IMG/VR virus record: IMGVR_UViG_3300032893_000231
Span: 1 to 28,731 of that record
Source of the DNA: a virus
Direction: 5' to 3' (one strand)
Length of the DNA: 28,731 nucleotides
The translations under genes and the position numbers were made by a program. The notes under the pieces were generated by a model. That model was not told the DNA's origin and did no database searches. It saw only the letters and a program-made list of their open reading frames with translations. Positions within the stretch are counted from its first letter, which is position 1, and every line of letters starts with the position of its first letter. Shown in pieces: positions 1 through 17,400 of the stretch.

Positions 1-99
1 GTAACTCCTCGAAGCACGCGTCGTCAGGTAACTACTCGAAGCACGCGTCGTCAGGTAACTCCTCGAAGCACGCGTCGTCAGGTAACTACTCGAAGCACG
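1..99 (+). repeat. 27-bp coding tandem repeat, arranged as a 54-bp duplication
   Basis: Units begin at 1, 28, 55 and 82; the last diverges after base 99. Units 1 and 3 have CCTC where units 2 and 4 have ACTC, giving alternating Ser and Tyr. The array therefore looks like a recent duplication of a 54-bp pair. It is in frame and encodes the 9-residue repeats of the DUF7666-like protein. The left edge may continue outside the window. Confidence 0.9.
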
Positions 100-296
100 A
101 AGCCACCGGCAAAAATTCTGCCGCCGCTGTCGCGGCTGTCGGAGGTCGTGCAAAAATGGCTGAAGGTGGCGCGTTTGCGTTGGCGTTCTACAACTCAGAA
201 ACCGGGTGGGATTTCGTAGTAGGTAAAGTCGGTATTAACGGCGTAAAGGCCAATACCTGGTATCACGTAGAAGACGGCAGGCTCGTCGAAGGTTGA
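1..296 (+). CDS. C-terminal part of a DUF7666-like repeat protein (5' end outside window)
   Basis: The frame is open from the window edge (first full codon at base 3) to TGA at 294-296. It starts with four 9-residue repeats of the form N-S/Y-S-K-H-A-S-S-G. A Gly/Ala-rich segment follows (SAAAVAAVGGRAKMAEGGAF), then a closing domain containing WDFVVGKVGINGVKANTWY and ending HVEDGRLVEG. Repeats of this kind followed by a closing sheet with a 'p-x-T-W-Y-x-l-x-d-G-x-f-V-E' ending are typical of phage and bacterial DUF7666-type proteins, whose molecular role is unknown. The repeats probably stack as a beta-solenoid. The N-terminal domain is missing, so the family call rests on the repeats and the last 40 residues. 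Confidence 0.7.
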   Translation, partial: NSSKHASSGNYSKHASSGNSSKHASSGNYSKHEATGKNSAAAVAAVGGRAKMAEGGAFALAFYNSETGWDFVVGKVGINGVKANTWYHVEDGRLVEG

Positions 297-3718: not shown

Positions 3719-4810
3719 ATGCATATACTCACACTACAAGATAGCGTTGACCTAGGAGATCAGACAATTGAGCAAGGCCGATACATCATAGACGACCTGA
3801 ACGCAGCTCACCTACTGGTCCTGGCGAGCAGAGGCCAGATGACAACCTTAGACGAAGTTCGCCCACTTGATGAGAATCAAGATTGGAACGATAAGAAAAT
3901 CCTTTTCATGCGTGCAGGCGGATTCGGCGATCTCGTATTACTCACGCCCGTGTTGCGCGAGATCAAACGCCGCTGGCCGAACTGCCACTTAGCGATATCG
4001 ACCATGAAGCATTATGCGCCGGTCATATCAAATCTGGAGTTAATCGACGAAATCATAGAGTACCCAGTCCCATTCGATATCGGAAATTCCTTCAACGCAT
4101 GGGTATTCCTTGAGAACGCGATCGAGCGCAACCCACGCGCCAGAGAAATTCACATGACGGAACTATTCGGGGAGATCGCTGGCGTCGCTTCAATCGACAA
4201 CCTTCTGCCTGAATACCGAGTTAAAGCCACCGAAGCAATCTGGGCCAATGAGGCATATCCTCGCGTGAACGGCACGAAGCGCTGCTGCATCCAGGTTGGC
4301 ACTTCCGCACTTTGCCGTACGTATCCGCGGTCAAAACTTAGCGAGGTCTGCATAGAACTACTTCAACGCGGTTGGGAAGTATTTCTTCTGGGCGCTAAGG
4401 GCGAAGTGAAGTTTGACAAAGCTCCGCCTGCTGGGCTTCGGAATTTAGCTGATGCGAATCTCACGCTGCGCCAGTCTGCTGCCGTAATGAGCCAGTCGGA
4501 CGTTTTCTTGGGTTCTGATTCGGCGCTGCTTCATATTGCAGGCGCGCTCGCAGTTCCGGCAGTAGGGCTCTATGGTCCGTTCCCATGGCACCTACGTACG
4601 AAGCATTGCCCAACGACCGTAGCGATTTCTGGTAACGGCGCATGCGCACCTTGCTTCCATCATGTGAATGCCGCTCGTAGGAATCATTTTCCAACAGATT
4701 GCCCATCGCGATCAAAAGGAATCTGCGAAGTACTGGCTGATATCTCGCCAGCGCGGATCGTTACGAAGCTCGAGGCGATTGCCGCGCATGAGCCGCGGGC
4801 GCATGGTTAG
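3719..4810 (+). CDS. Glycosyltransferase family 9 (heptosyltransferase-like)
   Basis: 363 residues. After a 58-residue N-terminal extension that is not typical of the family, ILFMRAGGFGDLVLLTPVLR (residues 61-80) gives the GT9 glycine-rich loop and first helix. CCIQVGTSALCRTYPRSKL opens the C-terminal Rossmann domain. FLGSDSALLHIAGALAVPAV then G-L-Y-G-P (from about residue 263) is the nucleotide-sugar binding motif that defines GT9. Enzymes of this family move heptose or related sugars from ADP/NDP donors to LPS-type acceptors. Here it could modify a host or virion glycan. The stop codon TAG (4808-4810) lies inside the first GTTAGGC core of the cassette region, so the natural C-terminus may have been replaced by cassette insertion. 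Confidence 0.85.
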   Translation: MHILTLQDSVDLGDQTIEQGRYIIDDLNAAHLLVLASRGQMTTLDEVRPLDENQDWNDKKILFMRAGGFGDLVLLTPVLREIKRRWPNCHLAISTMKHYAPVISNLELIDEIIEYPVPFDIGNSFNAWVFLENAIERNPRAREIHMTELFGEIAGVASIDNLLPEYRVKATEAIWANEAYPRVNGTKRCCIQVGTSALCRTYPRSKLSEVCIELLQRGWEVFLLGAKGEVKFDKAPPAGLRNLADANLTLRQSAAVMSQSDVFLGSDSALLHIAGALAVPAVGLYGPFPWHLRTKHCPTTVAISGNGACAPCFHHVNAARRNHFPTDCPSRSKGICEVLADISPARIVTKLEAIAAHEPRAHG

Positions 4811-4812
4811 GC
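4806..4812 (+). other. Left-boundary recombination core GTTAGGC
   Basis: The core fits GTTRRRY exactly and supplies the GT9 stop codon. I find no RYYYAAC partner within 141 bp upstream (the nearest GCCCAAC is at 4608, about 205 bp away). It may therefore be a secondary insertion target or an attI-like single site rather than a full attC. Confidence 0.55.
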
Positions 4813-4824
4813 GTTACAAGTTTT

Positions 4825-5073
4825 ATGACTATACACACAGATTTCAAAATGGTCCCGCTGGGCTTGTTCTTAATTCGGATGCAGCACGAAAGCACAGGAG
4901 GTCCTGTGTTGCACATCGGCCTGAAAGTGCGAGATGCAGAATGGTACGAGCAACCGACCTGCCCAGTTTACTCTGAAACGGCGTCGAAAAAACACTGTGC
5001 GGAGTTCTGGGCGTGGGCTGAAGAACACCTCCCAATCTATGAATACCCAAATACCGTCAAGGCGGCTGGTTAG
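4825..5073 (+). CDS. Cassette 1: hypothetical protein (82 aa)
   Basis: The leader runs from the core to the ATG at 4825 (TTACAAGTTTT, no good Shine-Dalgarno), as is common for cassette genes. The product starts MTIHTDFKMVPLGLFLIRMQ, contains 'VLHIGLKVRDAEWYEQP' and ends 'YEYPNTVKAAG'. TAG lies in the next core, GTTAGAG (5069-5075). No known family is recognised; it looks like a small mixed alpha/beta protein. The cassette lacks a recognisable RYYYAAC box, so its attC is degenerate or lost. Confidence 0.6.
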   Translation: MTIHTDFKMVPLGLFLIRMQHESTGGPVLHIGLKVRDAEWYEQPTCPVYSETASKKHCAEFWAWAEEHLPIYEYPNTVKAAG

Positions 5074-5075
5074 AG
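5069..5075 (+). other. Core GTTAGAG between cassettes 1 and 2
   Basis: It matches GTTRRR but has G instead of Y at the last base. It overlaps the stop of cassette 1. Its exact complement, CTCTAAC, occurs at 5360-5366 near the end of the following gene, supporting it as the left end of cassette 2. Confidence 0.5.
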
Positions 5076-5084
5076 ATTTTTACC

Positions 5085-5390
5085 ATGAGCCACGATACAA
5101 ACTGTCCTTACTGCCAAGCCGAAATCGAAATCAATCATGATGACGGCTATGGATATGGCGACGACCAATATCAGCAGACATGCAGATCGTGTGGCAAGGC
5201 GTTCGTCTTCACGACAACGACGGTCCATTATTACGATGTCGAAAAGGCGGACTGCCTGAACGGCGGCGAGCATAAATGGAAACGCACATGCACCATACCG
5301 CGTGAGTTCGAGCGGATGCGCTGCGAAATGTGCGGCGAAGAAAAACTGATTCCTGATTTCTCTAACGATCAAGGTGTGGCGCGTCGCTGA
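5085..5390 (+). CDS. Cassette 2: double zinc-ribbon-like protein (101 aa)
   Basis: The N-terminal half has C-P-Y-C (residues 8-11) and C-R-S-C (about 32-35), framing an acidic Gly/Tyr stretch; the pattern NCPYCQAEIEINHDDGYGYG is that of a zinc ribbon. After a Cys/His linker (DCLNGGEHKWKRTC), a third pair, C-E-M-C-G-E-E (about 84-90), occurs. Similar two-ribbon proteins are found in phages and integron cassettes without known function; nucleic-acid or protein binding is likely. It starts 15 bp after the cassette's left end, with no strong ribosome site. Confidence 0.7.
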   Translation: MSHDTNCPYCQAEIEINHDDGYGYGDDQYQQTCRSCGKAFVFTTTTVHYYDVEKADCLNGGEHKWKRTCTIPREFERMRCEMCGEEKLIPDFSNDQGVARR

Positions 5391-5397
5391 AAACTTT

Positions 5398-5508
5398 ATG
5401 GGAAATCCAACACAAACAAACGCAGCGCAACGGAGCGTAATCGCCTTCGGTCTAACGCCCAAGGTCTGCCACGGAGCGATAGCGACGTTGGCAGTAGCGC
5501 CTAGTTAG
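5398..5508 (+). CDS. Possible micro-ORF across attC (36 aa)
   Basis: The ATG follows AAAACTTT, like the leaders of neighbouring cassette genes (ACTTTATG). The product MGNPTQTNAAQRSVIAFGLT continues through the attC to a TAG inside GTTAGGC. Its start resembles that of the gene at 5779 (MENQNTP...QSV). It may be a remnant of a small fused cassette rather than an expressed gene. Confidence 0.3.
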   Translation: MGNPTQTNAAQRSVIAFGLTPKVCHGAIATLAVAPS

Positions 5509-5510
5509 GC
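5450..5510 (+). other. attC site 1 (61 bp), short hairpin type
   Basis: R'' GTCTAAC (5450-5456) and R' GTTAGGC (5504-5510) pair with one G-T wobble. Inside, CTGCCA (5466-5471) pairs with TGGCAG (5488-5493 region), with a GAGCGATAGCGA loop. This box order and an inner L''/L' pair with an unpaired central segment match canonical attC recombination sites recognised as folded single strands by IntI. Confidence 0.8.
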
Positions 5511-5515
5511 ACTTT

Positions 5516-5737
5516 ATGAAATACGAAGAACATAAACAAAGATTAGAAACAGTCCCATATATCAAGGAACGTAGGGCGACCCTAATGCACGCATGCGGTG
5601 CTTGCGGCGGAAGTGGATTCATCGACTGCGGCAATTCAGAAAGTGGGGATGTCGGCTATGGCCACGAATGCCGTATCTGTTCTGGCTCGGGTCGCAACGC
5701 GGAACCGTATCACGGCCAACTTTACATCGGTGCCTAA
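5516..5737 (+). CDS. Cassette 3: small DnaJ-type Cys-rich zinc-finger protein (73 aa)
   Basis: The ATG is 11 bp from the cassette's left end (leader TTAGGCACTTT). The C-terminal half has two C-x2-C-x-G-x-G units: C-G-A-C-G-G-S-G-F and C-R-I-C-S-G-S-G-R, the motif of the DnaJ/Hsp40 zinc-finger domain. The rest (MKYEEHKQRLETVPYIKERR) is a charged helix. There is no J domain, so it is a free-standing zinc finger that might bind unfolded proteins or RNA. The stop TAA is inside its attC box GCCTAAC. Confidence 0.7.
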   Translation: MKYEEHKQRLETVPYIKERRATLMHACGACGGSGFIDCGNSESGDVGYGHECRICSGSGRNAEPYHGQLYIGA

Positions 5738-5845
5738 CGCCAGTGATGACCAACGCTCTGCGGAGCGTAAATAACTCTATGGAAAACCAAAACACACCGA
5801 GCGTAGAAAACGCTCAATCAAACGGACAGATGCAGAGCGTTAGGT
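5732..5845 (+). other. attC site 2 (114 bp)
   Basis: R'' GCCTAAC (5732-5738) is the exact complement of this cassette's left end (GTTAGGC at 5504). R' is GTTAGGT (5839-5845). A perfect 10-bp inverted repeat, AACGCTCTGC (5752-5761) with GCAGAGCGTT (5832-5841), plus an inner GAGCGT/ACGCTC hairpin near 5795-5815, give it a long folded structure. The next gene starts inside it. Confidence 0.75.
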
Positions 5846-6177
5846 CTGGCACATGGTTGGCCGTCGGTGCTTCCGTGACATGGTGCCACTCCACGTCGAA
5901 CGGGCGAAGCATAGGTTTCAGCACACGGCGCGGAAAGATCGTTCAGATCAACCATGAAAACGGCATGGCATTCGTGAAGTATCGCCAGAAACACCTATGG
6001 GTTCAGATTAAGCGACTCCGCTCTGCCAGTGCGCGAACCGAACTCACCGAAATGGTAATGGGTGAGGTCGCGGAATCGGATAAACGAATGAACAGCTACA
6101 CTCAAGAGCAGCGTGCCCAACTTGAGCATGAGGCCCGCAGTATCATCGCTTCGGCCAACACCCGAGGTCTGCCATGA
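5779..6177 (+). CDS. Cassette 4: small beta-rich (SH3/KOW-like) hypothetical protein (132 aa)
   Basis: I choose ATG 5779 (leader AATAACTCT), which lies inside the previous attC; an in-frame ATG at 5854 is not excluded. An upstream extension of this frame to 5593 only overprints cassette 3. After a polar N-terminus encoded by attC DNA, residues 22-76 (SGTWLAVGASVTWCHS, then RRGKIVQINHENGMAFVKYR) look like a small beta-barrel of the KOW/Tudor/SH3 type. A charged helix follows (about 80-125). The function is unknown. The C-terminus (SANTRGLP) is encoded by the next attC. Confidence 0.6.
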   Translation: MENQNTPSVENAQSNGQMQSVRSGTWLAVGASVTWCHSTSNGRSIGFSTRRGKIVQINHENGMAFVKYRQKHLWVQIKRLRSASARTELTEMVMGEVAESDKRMNSYTQEQRAQLEHEARSIIASANTRGLP

Positions 6178-6210
6178 GCGAAGCGAATTGGCAGTAGTGC
6201 ATGGTTAGAC
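6153..6210 (+). other. attC site 3 (58 bp), homologous to site 1
   Basis: GGCCAAC (6153-6159) and GTTAGAC (6204-6210) are the outer boxes. The inner CTGCCA/TGGCAG pair and GAGCGAAGCGAA loop align base for base with attC site 1 apart from one deletion and scattered changes. R'' is off-consensus at its second base and does not match this cassette's left end (TTAGGT), so the cassette may be recombinant. Confidence 0.7.
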
Positions 6211-6227
6211 ATTATTAATTCAACTTT

Positions 6228-6548
6228 ATGCCAACAAAAGGATTAAATTTCATACCAAGACCAGACGCAATCGAGTGTCTGACGTACCAAGAGCTTGAAG
6301 CCAAGCTCCGATTATTCGACAGGATGCTAAAGAAATGCTTTGCACATCTCGGAGAAGAGATAAGCCGAAAGAGACTGAGCGAGTCTGCGGCAGACGGGAC
6401 ACAAGTTCTTTCGCGAGAGGTGGCGCAGGCTCTCGACTCTCTTTGGTCTAACAAGCAAATCTTCGCCCAGCCAGCCGCGCCGACCGCGCAGAAAGGCTTT
6501 ATTCCTGAGGATGACCGTACGCAAGCGCGCGAAGCGCGTTCGCTGTAA
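6228..6548 (+). CDS. Cassette 5: hypothetical helical protein (106 aa)
   Basis: The leader of 23 nt ends AACTTT before the ATG. The product starts MPTKGLNFIPRPDAIECLTY, then has a helical charged core (QELEAKLRLFDRMLKKCFAH, about residues 22-41) and further helices to about residue 80. Its last 33 residues (KQIFAQPAAPTAQKG... ending REARSL) are encoded by the attC itself and look non-specific. No family recognised. Confidence 0.6.
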   Translation: MPTKGLNFIPRPDAIECLTYQELEAKLRLFDRMLKKCFAHLGEEISRKRLSESAADGTQVLSREVAQALDSLWSNKQIFAQPAAPTAQKGFIPEDDRTQAREARSL

Positions 6549-6561
6549 CGCGTGGTTAGCC
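6446..6561 (+). other. attC site 4 (116 bp)
   Basis: R'' GTCTAAC (6446-6452) is the exact complement of the left end of cassette 5 (GTTAGAC). R' is GTTAGCC (6555-6561), which departs from GTTRRRY at one base. GC-rich dyads near 6520-6545 (GCGCGCGAAGCGCG) could form the stem. The gene's coding frame runs through most of it. Confidence 0.65.
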
Positions 6562-6570
6562 AATTTATTT

Positions 6571-6918
6571 ATGATACTACCGATAGAAATTCCCGATAGC
6601 CTACACCAGGACACGATCTCGCTCGTGATTCGTTTTTCAGAGGCGCTTGCCAGGAAACTCTATAAGGCCGAAGTCAAGTACGGATACTCTGATGGTTGGA
6701 TGCACCCGGAGTGGGTAGAGAATGGCGAATGCTCAGGGCATTTGATGCAGCATCTCGTCAAGGGAGACCCACGCGACGTGGCGGCATACTGCGCTTTTCT
6801 TTGGCATCACGATTCGAGCACGACGCCAGACGCTGACGATCTCCACGCCATGTTCACGCAGCTTTTGGCTAACACCGACGTTCCCCTCGGCCCTCGTCGT
6901 CTTTTATCCGCAGAATAA
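6571..6918 (+). CDS. Cassette 6: conserved phage-type hypothetical protein (115 aa)
   Basis: I choose ATG 6571 rather than an upstream in-frame ATG (6511), because it follows the core and an A/T leader (CAATTTATTT) as in other cassettes. The segment LARKLYKAEVKYGYSDGWMH followed by 'HLVKGDPRDVAAYCAFLWHH' is one I recognise from conserved proteins of unknown function in many phages and prophages. A phage-type gene in cassette form is notable. The C-terminus overlaps its attC. No catalytic motif is known for the family. Confidence 0.7.
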   Translation: MILPIEIPDSLHQDTISLVIRFSEALARKLYKAEVKYGYSDGWMHPEWVENGECSGHLMQHLVKGDPRDVAAYCAFLWHHDSSTTPDADDLHAMFTQLLANTDVPLGPRRLLSAE

Positions 6919-7005
6919 ATAAGATGAGCCACGCGCCAGAAGACTATTTCGAGCGAAGCGAGCAGCGGACGCTTGCCCGCGTTGGGCTCTGTCGCCGGGT
7001 TAGGC
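6867..7005 (+). other. attC site 5 (139 bp)
   Basis: R'' GGCTAAC (6867-6873) exactly complements the left end of cassette 6 (GTTAGCC). R' is GTTAGGC (6999-7005). Other core-like heptamers occur at 6981 (GTTGGGC) and 7008 (GTTAAGC), so the exact right edge is ambiguous. The GAGCGAAGCGAGCAGCG segment resembles the loops of sites 1 and 3. Confidence 0.65.
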
Positions 7006-7235
7006 GGGTTAAGCCAAAACGCACAGCTAAGCGTCAGTACGTGGACAGGCGGATTATTGTGACCGTGTACTGTCCTAAGCTGCCAGCTGTGCGCGAAGAC
7101 GAAGCGCATGAACGCATGCTCAACCTCGCAAACTATCGAGACGTGGAGTGGCTAACTTTTATGCAAGACAATTATTCGATGCTCGGCGGGGAACTACCGA
7201 CACTATTCCCTGCACTGCCTAACAAAGCGGATTAG
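6924..7235 (+). CDS. Cassette 7: hypothetical protein (103 aa), N-terminus encoded by attC
   Basis: ATG 6924 starts MSHAPEDYFERSEQRTLARV, a stretch that simply reads through attC site 5. The cassette proper begins at 7000, and an in-frame GTG at 7041 would give a shorter product beginning VDRRIIVTVYCPKLPA. The remaining 64 residues look like a normal small alpha/beta protein of unknown function. TAG is 10 bp past the box GCCTAAC. Confidence 0.5.
   Translation: MSHAPEDYFERSEQRTLARVGLCRRVRRVKPKRTAKRQYVDRRIIVTVYCPKLPAVREDEAHERMLNLANYRDVEWLTFMQDNYSMLGGELPTLFPALPNKAD
7217..7223 (+). other. Orphan R'' box GCCTAAC at the right end of the array
   Basis: It is an exact complement of the left end of cassette 7 (GTTAGGC at 6999), but no GTT occurs between it and the next gene at 7378. 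The right half of this attC has been lost, which would stop further excision of the cassette. Confidence 0.6.
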
Positions 7236-7377
7236 CACGATCTGCAACTAATAATTAAACCTAATGATAGTAGCACTACTCAGGTATCAGAAGCATGTCA
7301 GGCACACGTAAACTACCGGCTAGATTTAGACCTTAATATGCCATAAAATCATAGGCATACCGAACATAACGTATCTT
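7236..7377 (+). other. 142-bp intergenic spacer after the cassette array
   Basis: A/T-rich, with no ORF. It holds a small AGTAG/CTACT dyad near 7268-7281 and a 6-bp stem with 11-nt loop, TATGCC (7337-7342) with GGCATA (7354-7359). No U-tract follows either, so neither is a good terminator. No convincing -35/-10 pair is seen. Confidence 0.5.
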
Positions 7378-7587
7378 ATGAAATATAAACCAGAAGTAAA
7401 GCAACACGAACAAGTCAGTGGTACATTGCGCGCAACAAAACGAGCCCTTCGGGATCACATCGCTACAGCTAAATTGATTTTACGAAGAGGTCTGACAATT
7501 AAAGGCGCACCAATGAAAGAAAAACAGAAGCGAGCACTAAGGGAATTTATAACTGATTACACGGAGCGGTTGAAATCTTTGGACTAA
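7378..7587 (+). CDS. Small basic helical protein (69 aa)
   Basis: Lys/Arg-rich helices (TLRATKRALRDHIATAKLIL, then KEKQKRALREFITDYTERLK). It could bind nucleic acid, but no motif supports a family. There is no clear ribosome site. It is the first gene after the array and starts the downstream gene set. Confidence 0.55.
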   Translation: MKYKPEVKQHEQVSGTLRATKRALRDHIATAKLILRRGLTIKGAPMKEKQKRALREFITDYTERLKSLD

Positions 7588-7614
7588 AATAAAAAACTAC
7601 CTACTCCAAACTAA

Positions 7615-7857
7615 ATGCCATACAAACACAAAAAAGACCGCAACCAAGCCTGTGCTCGCTGGCGCAAGAAGAACCCAGAGTACATGGCGAAGTACGGTCG
7701 TAGGTACTACAAAAAAGTAACCCGACCTAAAATACTTGAAGCCAAAGCAAACCAGCCAAAACCCAAGATAGATCCTATTGCCAAGATCTGGGAAACAACT
7801 CTCACTTCACGGGTACCACGCAAGCGAACCTACACTGAAAACCTCCTTCAATCATGA
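7615..7857 (+). CDS. Small basic protein (80 aa), HNH-endonuclease-like N-terminal pattern
   Basis: MPYKHKKDRNQACARWRKKN followed by P-E-Y-M-A-K-Y-G-R-R-Y-Y-K-K resembles the 'K-D-P-E-K-R-x-x-x-x-R-x-Y-R' N-terminal stretch seen in many phage HNH-type endonucleases and associated proteins. The HNH catalytic part is absent. It may be a stand-alone DNA-binding remnant. It ends with an ATGA overlap into the glycan gene cluster. Confidence 0.5.
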   Translation: MPYKHKKDRNQACARWRKKNPEYMAKYGRRYYKKVTRPKILEAKANQPKPKIDPIAKIWETTLTSRVPRKRTYTENLLQS

Positions 7858-8492
7858 AAGTATTCACATACTATAACCACGTTGCATGCCTAAACGATCC
7901 TGATCTAATTGCGCTATGGAAGTCATCCTGGGCTAAGCACGGATGGGAACCTATCGTACTATCCGAAGCGGATGCATTAGCTGCTGATCCGGCGATGTTC
8001 GAACGCTTCAAGCGCTCGCCGCTGCTACTGAGCTGCCCTACGAACCCCGCAGGCTACACGTTGGCAGCTATGCTGCGCTGGGTAGCGATGACGGCCATCA
8101 ACGAGCCGTGCCTACACACAGATTGGGATGTCATGTGTAACGGCTACCGGCCAGAGCATGCGCCCGCGATCGGCTATCCTCCAACTTTTTTCGCCGGCTG
8201 CACCTGCCCGTGTGCAATCTTCGCCGATGGCCGCGGATGGAAGATGATCGCCGCTGCTATGGAGATGGTGCCACACACGCCGGAATTCAAGGCAGAGGAC
8301 CTATTGAAGGACTCCTGCGATCAATACGCGCTATCGGTTGCGCCAAAGAGCTGGTCTATCATCGACCCAGCGCGTCCGTGCCGGAATTATAATGGCGATG
8401 TCGAATGGCATGGCGCGCCGATGATCCATTTCCCGAACGCCACCACACCCTATCCCCGTAGTCAGACAATTAGGAGCCTTGGAATCGGATGA
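7854..8492 (+). CDS. Putative GT-A glycosyltransferase (212 aa)
   Basis: MKVFTYYNHVACLNDPDLIA begins like sugar transferases of the GT32/GT-A type found in phage and capsule loci. 'AMLRWVAMTAINEPCLHTDWDVMC' places a D-x-D-like acid pair (DWD, about residue 94) after a hydrophobic strand, the usual metal and nucleotide-sugar site. A Cys-rich turn (FAGCTCPCAIFADG) follows. Sequence similarity to a named family is not certain. The four genes downstream are coupled to it by 4-bp overlaps. Confidence 0.6.
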   Translation: MKVFTYYNHVACLNDPDLIALWKSSWAKHGWEPIVLSEADALAADPAMFERFKRSPLLLSCPTNPAGYTLAAMLRWVAMTAINEPCLHTDWDVMCNGYRPEHAPAIGYPPTFFAGCTCPCAIFADGRGWKMIAAAMEMVPHTPEFKAEDLLKDSCDQYALSVAPKSWSIIDPARPCRNYNGDVEWHGAPMIHFPNATTPYPRSQTIRSLGIG

Positions 8493-9271
8493 AAACCTGC
8501 GTTGTAGTTCCGTGGCATAATGAGCGACAGAAAGAATCATTTCTGCTCAACTGGGGATTATGGGGTAAACCAATTCCAAATTGGCTACATCTACAGCAAG
8601 ACGCAGTCAAAGATGGCTGCGCTATTACAAAAAATAAGGGAATAAAACAGGCCATTTACAGTGGCTACGAAATCATCTGCGTACTAGACGATGATTGTTT
8701 CCCGGCAGAATGTGGACCGAAGTGTTTAGACGAGTTCATGCATCTGCATGAGAAGGCGCTTGAGCCACAGAGTATAGACCTATTTCGAGTGGTTACAGAT
8801 CCACCTAGCCGTGGTACGCCCTACTACAATCGATCGATTAAAATGCCGGTAGCGGCATCGATGGGGTTCTGGGAGAACGTTCCTGACCTCTGCGCTCCTG
8901 CTCAGCTAGTACGTGGCCCGCTATGTCCAATGACGTTTGATAAGCGCCCAGTATTCGGCCAGCCGTTCCCTTACTGTGGTATGAACGTTGCCTTTCACGC
9001 GAAGTGGTGGCCATGGTGCCAGTTCGTTGATCGCCAGCGGATGGATGATATATGGGCCGGATTTTTATTCCAACGTCACGCATACAGGAATAACCATTGT
9101 TTCAATCTAAACGGCCCAATGGTGCGTCACAGCCGTCAGTCGAATGTTTGGCGCAACTTGGAAGACGAGGTTAAATACCTAGAGCGTAACGAAACGCTTT
9201 GGGCTGAAATATTCCTACATCCAAGCGACGATTATGAAGAACTCTGCAAACTACTACCGCCAAAAACATGA
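8489..9271 (+). CDS. Reversibly-glycosylated-polypeptide-like protein (GT75 / UDP-sugar mutase type)
   Basis: 260 residues. Recognisable RGP-family landmarks occur in order: a VVPWHNER start; ICVLDDDCFPAECG (about residues 64-77; the D-D-D-C acid motif); PSRGTPYYNRS; AASMGFWENVPDLCAPAQL (the 'G-W-x-N-x-x-D-L-D-A-P-T-Q' equivalent); and CGMNVAFHAKWW with RMDDIWAGFLFQR (residues about 165-195). Plant RGPs and bacterial relatives interconvert UDP-arabinopyranose/furanose and self-glycosylate. The actual sugar here is unknown. It sits in a tight cluster with other sugar enzymes and a methyltransferase. Confidence 0.75.
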   Translation: MKTCVVVPWHNERQKESFLLNWGLWGKPIPNWLHLQQDAVKDGCAITKNKGIKQAIYSGYEIICVLDDDCFPAECGPKCLDEFMHLHEKALEPQSIDLFRVVTDPPSRGTPYYNRSIKMPVAASMGFWENVPDLCAPAQLVRGPLCPMTFDKRPVFGQPFPYCGMNVAFHAKWWPWCQFVDRQRMDDIWAGFLFQRHAYRNNHCFNLNGPMVRHSRQSNVWRNLEDEVKYLERNETLWAEIFLHPSDDYEELCKLLPPKT

Positions 9272-9828
9272 ATCCACTATTCACAGTTAAATCCCGCCTA
9301 GATTTCATTCGCTATCTCAATAGCCGTGGTCTTACCAACGTCGGCGTTGAGATAGGTGTGCTGTTCGGCGAGTACTCGGAGTTCATACTCTCAAACTGGC
9401 CTGGCACGCTATACATGATTGATCCGTGGGAAAACCAGAAGCCAAGCGAATACCTCGATGGCTGCAACGCTGTGGACATGGAGAAGGCCATGAAGAAAGC
9501 CATGGCGGTTACTGGCAGGTTCGGTGATCGGGCGAAGATGTTCAGGGCATACTCAGCACATGCACCGCACCTTATTCTTAACCACCATGTCCCGATCGAC
9601 TTCGTTTTCATCGACGGAAACCACAAGCAATCGGCAGTAAAACAGGACATTGAAACATTCTGGCCGATCATCAAGTCTGGTGGCGTGCTGGCCGGCCACG
9701 ACTTCTACGAACGCCACGATGCCTATCAGGATTGCGGAGTGAAGACTGCGGTACAGAATTTTGCTCGTGAGAATCGCCTAACGGTTGTACTCACAAACGA
9801 CACGAGCTGGTTCATACAAAAGCCATGA
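9268..9828 (+). CDS. Class I SAM-dependent methyltransferase (Methyltransf_24-like)
   Basis: 186 residues. NVGVEIGVLFGEYSEFIL (about 24-41) is motif I, the SAM-binding loop. LYMIDPWEN (about 47-55) holds the acidic end of strand 2. VFIDGNHKQSAVKQDIETFW (about 112-131) and SGGVLAGHDF are the motif III/IV segments typical of the family that methylates sugars in O-antigen, rhamnolipid and glycan loci. It probably finishes a sugar made or attached by its neighbours. ATGA overlaps at both ends. Confidence 0.8.
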   Translation: MNPLFTVKSRLDFIRYLNSRGLTNVGVEIGVLFGEYSEFILSNWPGTLYMIDPWENQKPSEYLDGCNAVDMEKAMKKAMAVTGRFGDRAKMFRAYSAHAPHLILNHHVPIDFVFIDGNHKQSAVKQDIETFWPIIKSGGVLAGHDFYERHDAYQDCGVKTAVQNFARENRLTVVLTNDTSWFIQKP

Positions 9829-10547
9829 TCTGCGCCATCGGCATTTCTCATCGTGATCTTGATCGAGCCAAACGCTGGCTAGAATGGGTTGCGATATTGG
9901 AGGCTAGAGAGACGGCTCTTAGCTTTCGTGTGCCGATGATAATTATGTGCACGCAGTCGCTTAACCAATATCAGGTCCAGATGCTGCGAGAGGCTACGGA
10001 TAGATTCACCGGCCAAGTAGATATTACGATCATGCCGGATACCGAAGAAACAGGATATCCGAAATCGGCCTCGCATCTATTCCTGCGCACCATGGAATAC
10101 TGTGAGGCGAAATACCCAGCCGAACCCATTCTATGGGTAGAAGCTGATACGGTGCCGATGCGGCCAGGATGGCGTGAATCGATAGCCGCTGAGTATATGC
10201 AGTGTGGTAAGCCGTTTATGGGCGTTATCGAGCGCGGACATGGATTCGCCCACCTTGCGGGCGTTGCCGTGTATCCTCCAGACTGGCGCACGCGAGCACC
10301 GCTCCTGGCTGACGTATTGAACGCTGGCGATATATTTTGGGGTCCTAAACTTGGCCAGGCGTTCGACACTTATGCAGCGCCACAGACGGTCCCACAGTCG
10401 GCAGAGGCGCGTACTATCCAGCAAATATGGAGGCCGCACCTACCACTTACCATGCAATGGATGGGCACAAATATCCGCCAAGAGGTTGAGCTTTTCCACC
10501 AATGTAAAGATAACAGTGCAATAGAAGTACTAAAAGGAAGATTATGA
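9825..10547 (+). CDS. Putative glycosyltransferase-like protein (240 aa)
   Basis: The N-terminus (ICAIGISHRDLDRAKRWLEW) and mid-protein 'ILWVEADTVPMRPGWRESIA' (about residues 103-122) fit a GT-A fold, with E-A-D-T in the D-x-D position followed by 'P..P.W', a pattern frequent in phage sugar-transferase-like proteins. 'FMGVIERGHGFAHLAGVAVY' resembles the acceptor-side strand. A named family is not certain. It lies in the coupled set 7854-11230. Confidence 0.55.
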   Translation: MICAIGISHRDLDRAKRWLEWVAILEARETALSFRVPMIIMCTQSLNQYQVQMLREATDRFTGQVDITIMPDTEETGYPKSASHLFLRTMEYCEAKYPAEPILWVEADTVPMRPGWRESIAAEYMQCGKPFMGVIERGHGFAHLAGVAVYPPDWRTRAPLLADVLNAGDIFWGPKLGQAFDTYAAPQTVPQSAEARTIQQIWRPHLPLTMQWMGTNIRQEVELFHQCKDNSAIEVLKGRL

Positions 10548-11230
10548 AAATGTTCTCAGTCATCCATGCATCGTATGGACGACCAGAAAAAGCAATCGCA
10601 GCGATGAACACGTTGCTTGCAGCGGCAGCGTATCCGGAAGAAATAGAGTATATTTTTGCTCTCAATGATGACGACTCAACTTATAAGTCGGTGCTAGAAA
10701 TGGCTCCGAATGCCAAGTATGTAGTTGGCAGATTCAAAGGCTCAGCGCCAGCGTGGGATGCTGGGGCCAAGGGGTCATTTGGTCAGATTCTAATCCAGAT
10801 GCAAGACGATGTTATCCCGCCATACCATTGGGATGAGATCTTGCTTACTACAATTCATGAGGCGATTGCAGCGCCACCGGCTATAAGCCCAAAAGAAAAT
10901 CCTATTTTCGTAGCCGTATCAGATGGCTATCGCCTAGATGGGTTCTGCTTCATGGCGATCATGAATCGCGCTTACTATGAGATGCGAGGTGAGTTTATCC
11001 ATCCTGGATACATATCAGTATACAGTGATGATGATGTGTACTTTCAGGCCAAGAAGGCATCCGATGAAGGGAAGGCCGTACTAATCGAAGCTCGCGATAT
11101 AATTTGGAGGCATGATCACCATTACCACAATCCCAACGTACCAATGGATAAAACCTATCTGCGTGAGAACAGCGATAAGGCATATGCGCACGGGCTTGAA
11201 TTATTCAACAAGCGGTGCAGAGAGGATTAA
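10544..11230 (+). CDS. GT2-like glycosyltransferase (228 aa)
   Basis: FSVIHASYGRPEKAIAAMNT (residues 4-23) is the first strand-helix of a GT2 enzyme; LNDDDSTYKSV (about 42-52) holds acidic residues after strand 2; ILIQMQDDVIPPYHW (about 83-97) is the D-x-D-type site; 'SVYSDDDVYFQAKKA' and 'IIWRHDHHYHNP' (about 160-205) fit the catalytic and metal-binding end. It probably uses a nucleotide-sugar donor. The next gene is related in fold and starts 8 bp downstream. Confidence 0.65.
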   Translation: MKMFSVIHASYGRPEKAIAAMNTLLAAAAYPEEIEYIFALNDDDSTYKSVLEMAPNAKYVVGRFKGSAPAWDAGAKGSFGQILIQMQDDVIPPYHWDEILLTTIHEAIAAPPAISPKENPIFVAVSDGYRLDGFCFMAIMNRAYYEMRGEFIHPGYISVYSDDDVYFQAKKASDEGKAVLIEARDIIWRHDHHYHNPNVPMDKTYLRENSDKAYAHGLELFNKRCRED

Positions 11231-12224: not shown

Positions 12225-12632
12225 ATGACATCTGAAGTATTCATATCTACAGATCCTTCGCTGCTCGACAAGGAATGGGTCGTAGACGTAATCCAGTCCA
12301 GCTACTGGGGGAAGAGATTCACGAAAGACCAGCTACTGCGAGCCATGGATACGACTCTATGCTTCGGCGTTTATATGCGCACAGGGAATCGCCAGCAGTT
12401 AGGGTTCGCCCGCGTGCTAACAGACGGCGTTACATTATCATCGGTCACTGATCTAATCGTACGCGAAGGCCACAGACGGCTAGGACTAGGCACGCTACTT
12501 ATGAAAGCCGTACTAGCGCATCCGCGTGTTAGCCCGACGATCTGCGTACTCCAATCTCGCGACGCCGTTGAGTTCTATAAGAAGCTCGGATTTTCCAGCG
12601 TCACTAACGTACTAACCCACGATCCAGCGTGA
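12225..12632 (+). CDS. GNAT-family N-acetyltransferase (135 aa)
   Basis: CFGVYMRTGNRQQLGFARVL (about residues 45-64) and SSVTDLIVREGHRRLGLGTL (about 69-88) carry the GNAT strand 4 and the acetyl-CoA pyrophosphate loop (R-x-x-G-L-G). VLQSRDAVEFYKKLGF (about 107-122) is the standard C-terminal 'F-Y-x-k-l-G-F' signature. The substrate may be a sugar amine made by the upstream cluster or a protein; not visible. Its stop overlaps the GTG of terL. Confidence 0.85.
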   Translation: MTSEVFISTDPSLLDKEWVVDVIQSSYWGKRFTKDQLLRAMDTTLCFGVYMRTGNRQQLGFARVLTDGVTLSSVTDLIVREGHRRLGLGTLLMKAVLAHPRVSPTICVLQSRDAVEFYKKLGFSSVTNVLTHDPA

Positions 12633-14452
12633 ACGAAAAAGAATTTATTGAGACAGCAATCAAGACCCATGCTGGAGCATGGTTCGAATCACCCTATTGT
12701 AAGATATTCGGAAAGAACCGTGCTCAGGGCGTATTCACTCCACATCAAAATTATCTCCAAAGGAAGATACAGCGTGTCATCGACAAGATGGAAGACCTTG
12801 GCCTTCCGGTTAGAATTATAGGACTAAAGCCGCGCCAGAAGGGGTCTACCACTTATTTCGCTGCGTGCGTTTATCACACTCTCAGGCGACGCTCTACATC
12901 AGCCATATTGATCGGCGGACAGCTATCGCAGGTCGCTGAGGCGTGGGGTATGATGCAGACATACTCCAAGCATGATCGTATCGACTGGAAGAATACAGGC
13001 GACATCAACACGAAGGAAGGTCGATGGTCTCATGGCTCAAAGCTCATCGGTGAAACCGCAAAAGACGTGCTCGCTGGCGTCGGTGGCACTCACCAGGTAT
13101 TACATGCCTTTGAGGTGGCGCGCTGGGGTGAGCATGGCGTAGCTAACACAGCCGAGGTGCTAACCAATATATTGAAGTCAATTCCGCTGCTGCCGGATAC
13201 GATGGTAATCCTTGAATCTACCGCTGAAGGCGCAGCCGGCGAGTTTCCAACGAGGTATTTTGATGCAACACCAGCAGAGGACTTCCTGGATGGCACTGTC
13301 GATGTAAAGCCGGGATCTTATGTTCGAGTTTTTGCACCCTGGTATGAGTTTGAGGACTCTGCGCTCAGACTAACCGATGAAGAGCAGCAGCAGGTACAGG
13401 CTACGCTTGACGCCGATGAGGAATATGCAGGCGAAAAAGAACTTATCGAAAACTACCTCACTGAAGAAGATGGGGTGCAGCGCTTAGGCAGTGCCGTAAC
13501 TGGGTTCAACGTGTGGGAACAACTCGCGTGGCGTAGACATGCAATACATCAAGACTGTAAACGAGACATTAACATTTTTGACCGCGATTATCCAAAAGAT
13601 GAGCGCACAGCCTTCCAGAAATCAGGCAATCTCCGCTTCAACTACACTGGCATAAATGTAATCCGTAAGCGCGCTGCAAAGATCACCCCACTTCACGGAG
13701 TAATCGAAGAATCAAACAAGCGTTTTGCATTCCGCCAAGTGCCGATAAATGAAGCACAGATAACCATCTTCGAGAAACCAACTCCAGGGCGCAGGTATAT
13801 AGTATCGGTAGACCCAATGACTGGTGCTTCTCAGACATCAGGAGCCGACCCTGATTTCCATGCAGCATTTGTAATGCGCTCAGGATTTTGGAATGGCAGC
13901 GGTGTTTGGGTTAGGCCGTGTACAGCTGCTCGCGTGATACCGTGCCGCTGGGATATCGACGTCCTTGAGGAAGCCGTGTGGAAGCTCGCCAGATATTATG
14001 GTCCGCCTGGTTCAAATGCAAAGATAGTGATAGAGATGAATCAGGACAAGGGTATCACCGAACTGCTCAAACTTCGCAGTGCTAATCTTTATCAGCGCGA
14101 AGTATTCAACAAGATGGAGTTCAAGACAACGAAATCGCTTGGGTACGTCACCAATACGAATACCCGAGAGAAGCTTATAGAGACCCTGGCAACCGCAATT
14201 CGCGAATGGGATAAGCCAGGTGAAGGCATAGACATATATTGTCCAAACGCTATCGACCAGCTAGATAACTTCGTTAGAAAATCAAACGGTCGATCAGAAG
14301 CCGCCGAAGGCAATCATGACGACGATGTATTTGGGATCGGTCTCGGACTTGAGTTAATCGAACACGGTACTATATATATTCCTGAACGCAGCATATTCGG
14401 ACCTCCGCCGCTTTCAGAGAATCGACAACCAATTGGCTCGCCATACTCCTAG
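12629..14452 (+). CDS. terL: Terminase large subunit (DNA packaging ATPase-nuclease)
   Basis: 607 residues with a GTG start in a GTGA overlap. IIGLKPRQKGSTTYFAACVY (residues 63-82) contains the Walker A-like loop KPRQKGSTT. VLHAFEVARWG (about 157-167) supplies the Walker B strand and catalytic Glu162. MVILESTAEG (192-201) is the coupling motif. The C-terminal RNase-H-like nuclease has acids at D395 (VSVDPMTGAS), E469 (IVIEMNQDKG) and D564-D566 (DDDVFGIGLG). This matches two-domain TerL proteins that translocate DNA into proheads and cut the concatemer. No small-subunit terminase is recognised next to it; the small genes upstream do not look like one. Confidence 0.92.
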   Translation: MNEKEFIETAIKTHAGAWFESPYCKIFGKNRAQGVFTPHQNYLQRKIQRVIDKMEDLGLPVRIIGLKPRQKGSTTYFAACVYHTLRRRSTSAILIGGQLSQVAEAWGMMQTYSKHDRIDWKNTGDINTKEGRWSHGSKLIGETAKDVLAGVGGTHQVLHAFEVARWGEHGVANTAEVLTNILKSIPLLPDTMVILESTAEGAAGEFPTRYFDATPAEDFLDGTVDVKPGSYVRVFAPWYEFEDSALRLTDEEQQQVQATLDADEEYAGEKELIENYLTEEDGVQRLGSAVTGFNVWEQLAWRRHAIHQDCKRDINIFDRDYPKDERTAFQKSGNLRFNYTGINVIRKRAAKITPLHGVIEESNKRFAFRQVPINEAQITIFEKPTPGRRYIVSVDPMTGASQTSGADPDFHAAFVMRSGFWNGSGVWVRPCTAARVIPCRWDIDVLEEAVWKLARYYGPPGSNAKIVIEMNQDKGITELLKLRSANLYQREVFNKMEFKTTKSLGYVTNTNTREKLIETLATAIREWDKPGEGIDIYCPNAIDQLDNFVRKSNGRSEAAEGNHDDDVFGIGLGLELIEHGTIYIPERSIFGPPPLSENRQPIGSPYS

Positions 14453-14477: not shown

Positions 14478-14492
14478 TATAGCCAGCGTTTG

Positions 14493-17400
14493 ATGCCAAC
14501 ATCGCCAGCAAGCAAACCGCTCGATGAAGACGAAGATTCCCCAGCTTTAATTGAGGGTGATCCGAGTAAGCCTATCTCGCGTGACCGTTTAAACACAGCC
14601 GTTCGCGCTACATCGGTTAACCAACCGACCCCAAATGAGGAACAGCCACAGGAACAGCCCGATCAAGCGCCAGAACCCAAGATCATAGGTACTACTGGCG
14701 GTGAGGTGCCGACATTCGAAAGCGATCGGCCACATCAGCCTATCAAGTGGTCAGCTGATCCAGCTGAGCGCCAGAATCAGGTGCAGCAGGAAATTGCCCG
14801 ACGCCGGCAAGTTCAGGGCGAAGCCGAGCATCCATTTATGCCCTCTAGCTGGGCACCAGATGTGGCGTCAAATAATACTCCCCGCGACGATCGCGAGGTA
14901 GAACAGACTGCCGAAAATCAATTTCAATTCCAGCGCCAGCAGGAGGTCGCCAAGCGCCGCCAGGATATAGCGCAGAGCCGAGCAGACCTAGCCAATTACA
15001 ACTCCCAGCAGCTTGCTAAGTTCACAGCCAATGGCCAGCGTCACTATGTAGATCCCGCCAGCGGTAAGGTCACGCCGGTACTCGACGAGCAGGGACGCCC
15101 ACAGTTCACGCCAACTAAATGGGAACTTACGCAGCATCCAAAGACCGGCCAACCCGCGCTGATGATGCGTGATCGGTTTGGCCAGCGGCAGTTCAAAGAG
15201 CCACAGGTTGTCGCACCGCTAGATCCCACCGACGACAATATGTACCACCAGCTCCCAGATGGTACACTGTCAGACAAACCCGCAGGGAAGATTTCAGATC
15301 TTGCGCAATCGCCTAATTATAGAATAGCGAAGGTAGCTCTTGCCGCCCAGAAGCGTAACATCCACGCCAAACATCAGGAGGCACTGGCTGGTTCCAAAGC
15401 GCTGCTCGACGACGCAACGGCGTCGCTTAACGACGTCAGAACACAGCGCGATGACCTAGACAGTCAGATAGCCGATACTGAGAAACTGTTCGCTACTACG
15501 ACCGATCAAACTAAACTCGACGCGCTGACGGCTACGCTACAGCAGCAGAACGAGCAACGCGATGCCCTCAACGAACGGATTAAGCCAAACGGCGATCTTG
15601 GGAATATGGTCAGCCGTAATCGCGCTGCTTATGTCGCGGCACGTGCGGCGCAGGCGGTCGATACTTACCGTGCCCAAGAGGCAGAGATTGCGGCTGCAGT
15701 TAAGGCCCGCGGTGGAAAACTCGAAGACGATCCGGCCTACAAAGACAACCTCCGAAATATCCAGATCAACGAGCAGCTAAAGAATAGCGCCGAAGCCGAG
15801 CTCCAGAAAACGACTGCGCTTCAGCCAAAAGGTGAACCCAATCAATCTCCAGTCGATGCAGCTCTATCTAGCGCCGAACCCTACATCCGTGCAGGCAAGG
15901 GCGTGAAGATGATTGGAAGTGTTCCGATCCAAGAATTCTCGAATGAATTCGGTGATGGCCGCGGGCCGGTAAACCCGCAATCGGTTCTGAAGCTATACGA
16001 CAGGAGCAAGGAAATAGATGGACTTCTCAAGAACGATTCAACCACGAAGCTAACGCCAGTCGTACTATCTCATCTCCAACAAGAAAAGGACTACATCGAT
16101 ACTCTGGCAAAGCAGCGATTCGCTCGCCTTCCACAGGATCAGCAAAAACAGATCACTGAGATCACAAGAGATCCTACCTTGGGAGAAAAGCGTGTAGCAA
16201 TGGAAACAGGCTTCCTACGTGGGGTTGGTAATACACTAGCCGAAGGTGGTAAGGGCGTCACGAGTTTCTTTAGTAGAAGGCTGATAAACCCGACTGTAGT
16301 AAATCCAGACGATAATCTCATCACGCGTTCAATCGATAAGGCGCAGAAACTGATGAATGATAATCTGGTGGTAGGTGGAGTTACTCCAGAGGTTCAGCAA
16401 AAGCTCCGCGATAGTTTTGTAACCGGTACCGCACCTGAAACCGCCGGCCAAATCTACGCTCTATTCGCACCATCAGGCGCGGCCAGTAAAATAGGCAAAG
16501 CGGCTGGAATGTCAGAAGAGGCGCTAGGATTCATCAACCGGTATGGAACTGCAGCCACAGCTGCTGCAACAGGCTCCAATTCGATGCGCGAGCAGGCTAT
16601 CAAGGTTCTCAAACCAAAGCTCGACGCCGGCCAGATAACCCAAGACGACTACCAGAAGGCTGTCGGGATGTCGGAACTTGCCGGTGGCGCGATCGGTGCA
16701 GCTGCGTTCGTACCTGTCAGCCGCATGCTCAACCGCGTCTCAGGACTGCCAGCCGGCCAGACGCTGATTACGTCACTGCTCGACCGCGCGGCAAAGGGCG
16801 GGAAAGTTTCTGCTATGAAATGGCTGGCCGGAAATGCCGGCAAACAGGCCGTTACGAACGCAGTCTCTGAAGGCGTTGAAATGGGCGGTATTGGCTGGGC
16901 ACAGAATGTCGCTAATGACCTTGCGGCCAAAACAATCTTCGACCCCAATCGACAGGTCAGTTTCAAGGATGCATCGGACAGTGGTGCAAGTATGGGCGTG
17001 CTTGCAGCGCTCACATCGGCATTCACACATGCGCTTCCGGCTGTTGCAAATAAGCTCGGCAAAGGTCCGGGTGGAACGCCAGAAGAACCAGGCGCAACTG
17101 CACCGAAGGCCCCGACGCCACCGGCTGGCGAGCCAACTCCAGAATCAACCAAGCCAGCTGAGCCTAATACGCCTACTAAGCCAGCCAAGATTCCTGCTGA
17201 GCACAAAGAAGTTCTAGACCGTCTAGCCGACGCTGCAGAGAGAGCTCACACCGGAACCCCAGAAGAGCAGGCAAGCGCCAACGCTGAGCTTGAGAGAATC
17301 CTGGCTGAAGGCGCTCCTAAATCAGAACCCGTAGCTGAAGCGAATGTAGAGCAAAAATCAACTGAACCGGCTAAAACCGAAAAGCCGACTAAGATTGATA

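Follow-up and report, generated by a model that had tools for sequence, protein, structure and literature searches.

Inverted gene cassettes at Opitutaceae-type attC sites in a phage genome lacking an integron integrase

Introduction

How does a phage without an integron integrase come to hold what looks like an array of integron gene cassettes, and through which enzyme would such cassettes enter and leave its genome? This question is raised by the virus record IMGVR_UViG_3300032893_000231, whose 28,731 bases we analysed in full (hereafter, the window). Between a glycosyltransferase gene of the GT9 type (3719-4810) and the terminase/portal side of the genome, an initial annotation had described seven GTT cores separating small open reading frames (ORFs), with no intI gene nearby, and had proposed that they form a cluster of attC sites lacking integron integrases (CALIN). 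We find at ~4806-7235 an array of attC sites of the type carried by Opitutaceae chromosomes, in which all genes are inverted relative to the attC sites, and we consider it likely that its cassettes are exchanged through an integron integrase (IntI) acting in trans. The initial annotation also suggested that a cassette array in a lytic-type phage genome had no well-described precedent, but CALINs had been published by Qi et al. 2023 (PMC9892861), who reported 17 of them, together with 3 complete integrons, among 10,705 phage genomes and found that attC sites of lytic phages recombine with IntI1. Phage CALINs are thus already known; the uniform inversion of the ORFs is the new part.

Results

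Two covariance models trained on host attC sites (R1 and R2) were run over the whole window, R2 with its filters off. R2 recognised five sites, four of them significant and one weak, all within positions 5450-7005 of the array, and none of its scores elsewhere in the window exceeded 11 bits. All sites lie on the minus strand. The clearest is a 61-nt site at 5450-5510 (R1, 45.7 bits, E 4.9e-10; R2, 49.2 bits, E 1.7e-9), whose boxes read on that strand R'' GCCTAAC, L'' CTGCCA-A, L' TGGCAG and R' GTTAGAC. The other significant sites are a 131-nt attC at 5732-5862 (R2, 37.7 bits, E 8.7e-7), which is also found in a larger relative, G001; a 58-nt attC at 6153-6210 (R1, 29.4 bits, E 1.2e-5; R2, 30.5 bits, E 4.4e-5); and a 96-nt attC with one degenerate core at 6910-7005 (R2, 25.4 bits, E 7e-4). 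A degenerate attC-like site at 6465-6561 (R2, 15.3 bits, E 0.17) is not significant on its own. A CALIN being defined by at least two attC sites within ~4 kb, the window holds four in 1.6 kb. The proposal of a CALIN in a phage genome was therefore supported, since models trained on hosts were significant only at the array and the record contains no recombinase gene.

These sites display the complete anatomy of attC: R''/R' and L''/L' boxes, unpaired spacers, an extrahelical base and a variable central part. A fixed L''...R' pattern matched twice in the window and never in 100 shuffles. The DNA fold of the 131-nt site stood out against shuffled sequence (z -3.8 and -4.7; 0/200 shuffles). At the other attC sites of the window the single-strand folding energy was unremarkable; the case for attC rests on anatomy and models. 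Over 65 phage attC sites the covariation score was 0.494, versus 0.134 for shuffled and 0.036-0.060 for slid alignments, and the pairing is likewise backed by compensatory changes in 147 distinct host sites, both alignments having been fitted to the model and so biased towards structure. An arm-pairing score built by hand around GTT/AAC anchors was too noisy against the background and was replaced by a box-and-extrahelical-base finder and by the covariance models.

As for the seven cores, the array itself stood but seven complete attC sites did not. GTTAGGC at 4806-4812, which marks the left end of the array and gave no R2 match, and a second core at ~5069 are half-sites at which no attC is detectable. 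The core listed at 5839 (GTTAGGT) lies within the stem of attC 5732-5862, the true outer box of which is GTTGGCC at 5856. At the right end, a terminal core at 7217-7223 (GTTAGGC on the minus strand) lacks a hairpin and shows a short similarity to the right end of the G001 array (ACGATCTGC); judging from its sequence, it is a candidate attI-like array end.

The models were our own because an Rfam scan of the window returned no matching family. The short pattern, for which a pair of candidate sites in the window and related sites in G001 served as the source, occurred among viral contigs in four stretches of three contigs and had exact matches in 14 stretches from 84,980 bacterial and archaeal genomes, ten of them in metagenome-assembled genomes (MAGs) titled Opitutaceae, Opitutae/Opitutia, Lacunisphaera or Verrucomicrobia. 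G267, which had a pattern match and no model match, was excluded. R1 was built from 11 host attC sites and R2 from 150, taken from two of the first MAGs and from eleven additional arrays; host sites proved better and were preferred over those of class 1 plasmid integrons, which went unused. Neither model includes any phage sequence, yet the first host sites had been located through the phage-derived pattern. The comparison with host chromosomal integron cassettes that the initial annotation had suggested gave a match in the attC sites, which are of Opitutaceae type. Chromosomes of this family often carry integrons, with up to 40 attC matches per genome: 76 of 120 genomes have attC sites of this type and 43 of the 120 encode an IntI above the curated cut-off, as do five of the eight first verrucomicrobial MAGs. 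In the literature searched we found no paper naming Opitutaceae and integron gene cassettes together, and a 2021 paper on attC taxonomy leaves Verrucomicrobia unmentioned. A cyanobacterial attC-like sequence in a Candidatus Cyanaurora vandensis MAG (L032 2310-2347) is also near the Opitutaceae type.

The most distinctive property of the array is its polarity. Whereas the strand-specific models place every attC of the window on the minus strand, all seven array ORFs lie on the plus strand. The extrahelical base beside L'' agrees with the strand call of the models, the arms reading GAGCCA-A-CGG / CCG-TGGCTC in hosts and CTGCCA-A-CG / CG-TGGCAG on the minus strand of the window. Instead of the usual cassette with one promoterless ORF reading towards its attC, small separate ORFs here read away from it. 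In a codon-based coding-strand test of eight phage contigs, among which the window, G001 and a further relative, G003, represent one phage family, all 37 clear calls were opposed to attC and none on the same strand. Host chromosomal cassettes gave the reverse picture, with 65 clear calls on the attC strand and one opposed (Fisher p = 3e-27, cassettes within one array not being fully independent). Counted by contig, inversion was found in 8/8 phage contigs versus 0/13 host loci; one of the former, G271, carries a pair of arrays that face opposite ways, each with its ORFs inverted relative to attC. The attC sites of host arrays lie upstream of intI and on the opposite strand to it, and the cassette ORFs share the attC strand. 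The codon-based test replaced strand calls made from the longest ORF, which had given 37 opposed and 12 same. In the part of the literature that we covered, we found no earlier description of an array whose ORFs are all inverted.

This polarity also defines where cassettes begin. IntI cleaves between the G and the TT of R' on the canonical strand and, therefore, between AA and C on the plus strand of the window. With the minus strand as the canonical one, cassette ends fall at the AAC cores at 5450-5456, 5732-5738, 6153-6159 and 7217-7223, and not at GTT. This reversed reading is supported by the single cassette common to the window and G001, since its homology begins exactly at core 5732-5738 (GCCTAAC / GACTAAC) and not at GTT. 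It follows that each attC precedes its own ORF, and the longer sites hold the start codon of that ORF (5779 in attC 5732-5862; 6924 in attC 6910-7005). Leader peptides read across the border of two cassettes had been considered and were dropped, as the attC polarity places the ORF start in its own attC. The recombining, folding strand would thus be the coding strand of the phage. The initial annotation had missed both this inversion and the intI gene of a same-family relative described below.

Hairpins that are intergenic and, in two cases, contain start codons might also be phage RNA elements, such as terminators or processing sites, that merely resemble attC, for regulatory hairpins can be so placed. 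We regard this as very unlikely: the boxes, spacers and extrahelical base of host attC sites are kept and score with a model made from hosts only, the homology of the shared cassette starts at the predicted crossover point, and an IntI gene adjoins such an array in G003.

The position of the array in related phages supplied a second line of evidence. In G001 (61.7 kb), a GT9 gene 76% identical to that of the window is followed by ~6.5 kb of cassettes and then by a homologue of the gene at 7615. Its array is larger than that of the window and occupies the same slot, with one cassette only in common, which implies cassette turnover there. This different array in the same slot of a related phage, recovered from separate metagenomes, strengthened the CALIN proposal. 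Another metagenome yielded G022, a circularly permuted sequence with 99.99% identity to G001 that spans the left junction, so that this junction is no assembly error. G022 also bridges the ends of G001 with ~129 bp, which probably makes ~61.8 kb the full length of a G001-type genome. In the more distant relatives G004 and G005, the GT9 gene has no adjoining array and no attC was matched. The window being a single metagenomic record, an assembly chimaera of a bacterial integron contig and a phage contig had to be considered; however, the array of G001 with the same flanking genes, the identical left junction in a separate metagenome, the even GC content across the junctions (0.52 inside the array, 0.50 around it), an ORF polarity unlike that of bacterial arrays, and the occurrence of such arrays in further phage contigs bearing terminase or portal genes make it scarcely credible.

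An alternative explanation would be that a piece of a host chromosomal integron was captured by chance and is passively decaying, with no present exchange. The lack of intI in the window, the two half-sites and the degenerate sites at 6465 and 6910 would fit it. Nevertheless, G001 keeps an array in the same slot with almost all cassettes different; host-derived ORFs would be expected on the attC strand (65/66), whereas the clear phage ORFs are all opposed; and cassette ORFs are common to phages, not to the sampled host arrays. Decay of a captured fragment thus appears unlikely, and exchange of cassettes in trans the better account.

Which integrase might serve the array? The absence of intI noted in the initial annotation was confirmed: searches of the record with PF00589 and for IntI were negative. 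No tyrosine recombinase was found in the window, a record that may be incomplete, nor in the nearly whole G001, serine recombinases and repressors being outside these searches; IntI had no match in either, and the window lacks the intI gene that, with attI, adjoins the array of a complete integron. By contrast, G003 (66 kb), of the same phage family (portal 74%, terminase 55% and GT9 57% identical), has an array of at least 14 attC sites on the minus strand (49478-59184) adjoined by an intact IntI gene on the plus strand (59441-60394; L167:13442-14395). The protein, of 318 amino acids (aa), matches TIGR02249 with 312 bits against a cut-off of 265 and aligns along its length with the solved IntI structure 2a3v, with the catalytic motifs retained; a suspected frameshift in the gene was ruled out. 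The polarity of attC relative to intI is the same in G003 as in host integrons, the cassettes being inverted. In G003 the next phage gene directly follows the GT9 gene, so its integron occupies another place, having either moved or been acquired independently.

A partial IntI occurs in another phage contig (G273, 32478-33122, minus strand). It is 55% identical to that of G003, with which it forms a clade at 100/99 support, and the closest IntI in 388 Verrucomicrobiota genomes reaches at most 49% identity; both phage branches are long, making their placement relative to host IntIs less certain. This clade, with cassettes common to phages and an ORF polarity unlike that of host cassettes, could mean that the phages have an integron system of their own, in which a phage IntI serves inverted, phage-specific cassettes and host integrons are not the supplier. 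Yet IntI was found in two contigs only, once as a partial gene, and the abundant host IntIs could act on the same attC sites; we judge it unlikely in this strict form.

The cassettes encode mostly small proteins without assigned function. Gaps between the seven ORFs of the window are mostly 5-50 nt. The stop codon of the GT9 gene (plus strand; Pfam PF01075, 2e-15; product flanking the G001 array 76% identical) overlaps the half-site at 4806. It is followed on the plus strand by ORFs of 82 aa (4825-5073; function unassigned), 101 aa (5085-5390; Cys-rich, with a CPXCG match at Pfam 3e-4, below cut-off) and 73 aa (5516-5737; weak DnaJ-type CXXCXGXG match). The cassette ORF shared with G001 (132 aa, 5779-6177) is 58% identical overall and 72% over 92 aa, and the predicted structure of its product is of low confidence (mean predicted local distance difference test score, pLDDT, 41.8). 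Next come ORFs of 106 aa (6228-6548; weak winged helix-turn-helix match), 115 aa counted from the ATG at 6571 (6571-6918; supported by coding score) and 103 aa (6924-7235). The right flank is a small basic protein gene (7615-7857, plus strand), whose homologue flanks the G001 array (50% over 34 aa, 2e-7). Relatives have more informative cassettes: G001 and G003 have two methyltransferases in common, one of them a C5 cytosine methyltransferase, N4/N6 methyltransferase-like ORFs occur in G268, G270 and G271, and one cassette of G272 resembles PAPS-reductase/SspD. Outside attC stretches, phage cassette ORFs had no match in the host arrays sampled (~236 host attC sites).

The remainder of the window is that of a tailed phage, with a large terminase gene (12629-14452, plus strand; PHROG 24361, 5e-6) and a portal or head-tail connector-like gene (21356-23716, plus strand) that has a weak match to PHROG 332 (7.5e-4) and relatives in 8 viral contigs. 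It also encodes a RecT/Bet-like annealing protein, an exonuclease and a Holliday-junction-resolvase-like nuclease. Its lifestyle may be virulent. A single ORF of 2277 aa (14490-21323), little conserved in relatives and without PHROG match, separates the terminase and portal genes. Short in-frame peptide repeats (STRRQVT / NSSKHASSG) occupy the left edge of the window (1-219), and separate DNA repeats occur near the right end of G001 (L009:19508-20523).

Discussion

Exchange of Opitutaceae-type cassettes in trans would operate as follows. Cassettes would enter and leave through an IntI provided by a host chromosomal integron or by a co-infecting, IntI-bearing phage such as G003. As the cassettes are backward, all their genes share the orientation of the phage genes on either side, and read-through of phage transcription could express them with no need for the integron promoter Pc. 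In that case the array would be an exchangeable block of small, co-transcribed accessory genes, and the DNA methyltransferase cassettes of relatives could counter host restriction. We infer all three elements: exchange in trans, read-through expression and counter-defence.

Several observations weigh against this interpretation. Part of the array may be dead, given that its left two ORFs lack detectable attC sites and that two of its sites are degenerate. A promoter for the array was not identified. Exchange is deduced from comparing sequences. Opitutaceae are the putative host on the basis of attC type alone, only remote relatives of the portal were found among 252 genomes of the family (in 3 of them), and the shared cassette occurred in none of the 252. 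Finally, the cassettes of the window have no assigned function, so that counter-defence rests on the relatives.

We also advance, tentatively, a broader possibility: phages of Verrucomicrobiota may possess a self-contained integron system with its own IntI clade and a pool of inverted cassettes, in which the folding strand is the coding strand and cassettes and intI form one operon. Phages without IntI, such as that of the window, would use the enzyme of others in trans; the cassettes of this pool, DNA-modification genes prominent among them, would be traded between unrelated phages. These phages may thus run a gene-swapping system of their own. Phage cassette arrays had been scattered single cases, whereas here a lineage keeps one slot with turnover. 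The consistent inversion sets the phage cassette pool apart from the host pool and offers a simple metagenomic test for phage cassettes (ORF strand versus attC strand). It also prompts one to ask how backward cassettes arise.

Among known systems, the CALINs of virulent phages (TJE1, P12002L, PH101 and MW202573; PMC9892861) are likewise integrase-less attC arrays with methyltransferase cassettes. They belong to other phages, and the Opitutaceae-type attC of the window differs from theirs. Qi et al. 2023 (PMC9892861) described neither a conserved slot whose cassettes turn over nor a relative that bears IntI. Not all phages show the inversion: the only site detected in TJE1, a weak one, is on the ORF strand, as are weak sites in Virus Rctr41k, whereas ORFs oppose attC in the window and its relatives. 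In MW202573 (L027, 2069-3446), weak R2 matches opposite the ORF strand (E 0.014-0.53) are not significant; its CALIN may also be inverted. Virus Rctr41k (KX853513, L178) has at 4680-10842, among small ORFs, an integron-type integrase and weak attC matches, and looks like a phage integron with ordinary ORF polarity.

The sedentary chromosomal integrons of Opitutaceae share attC sequence and structure with the window, including GTTCGGC-type cores, and differ from it in having intI and ORFs on the attC strand (65/66 clear calls). The complete integrons of Vibrio phage p16, P1 L-II and Shewanella M16-3 (Qi et al. 2023) combine intI and cassettes as G003 does, although the G003 IntI is ~36-41% identical to theirs and to the integrase-like gene of Rctr41k. 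In the reverse integron of Treponema denticola (PMC4909258), intI and cassettes point in the same direction, as in G003. G003 would differ from it in having intI downstream of the cassettes and the usual intI/attC polarity, the ORFs themselves apparently having been turned round.

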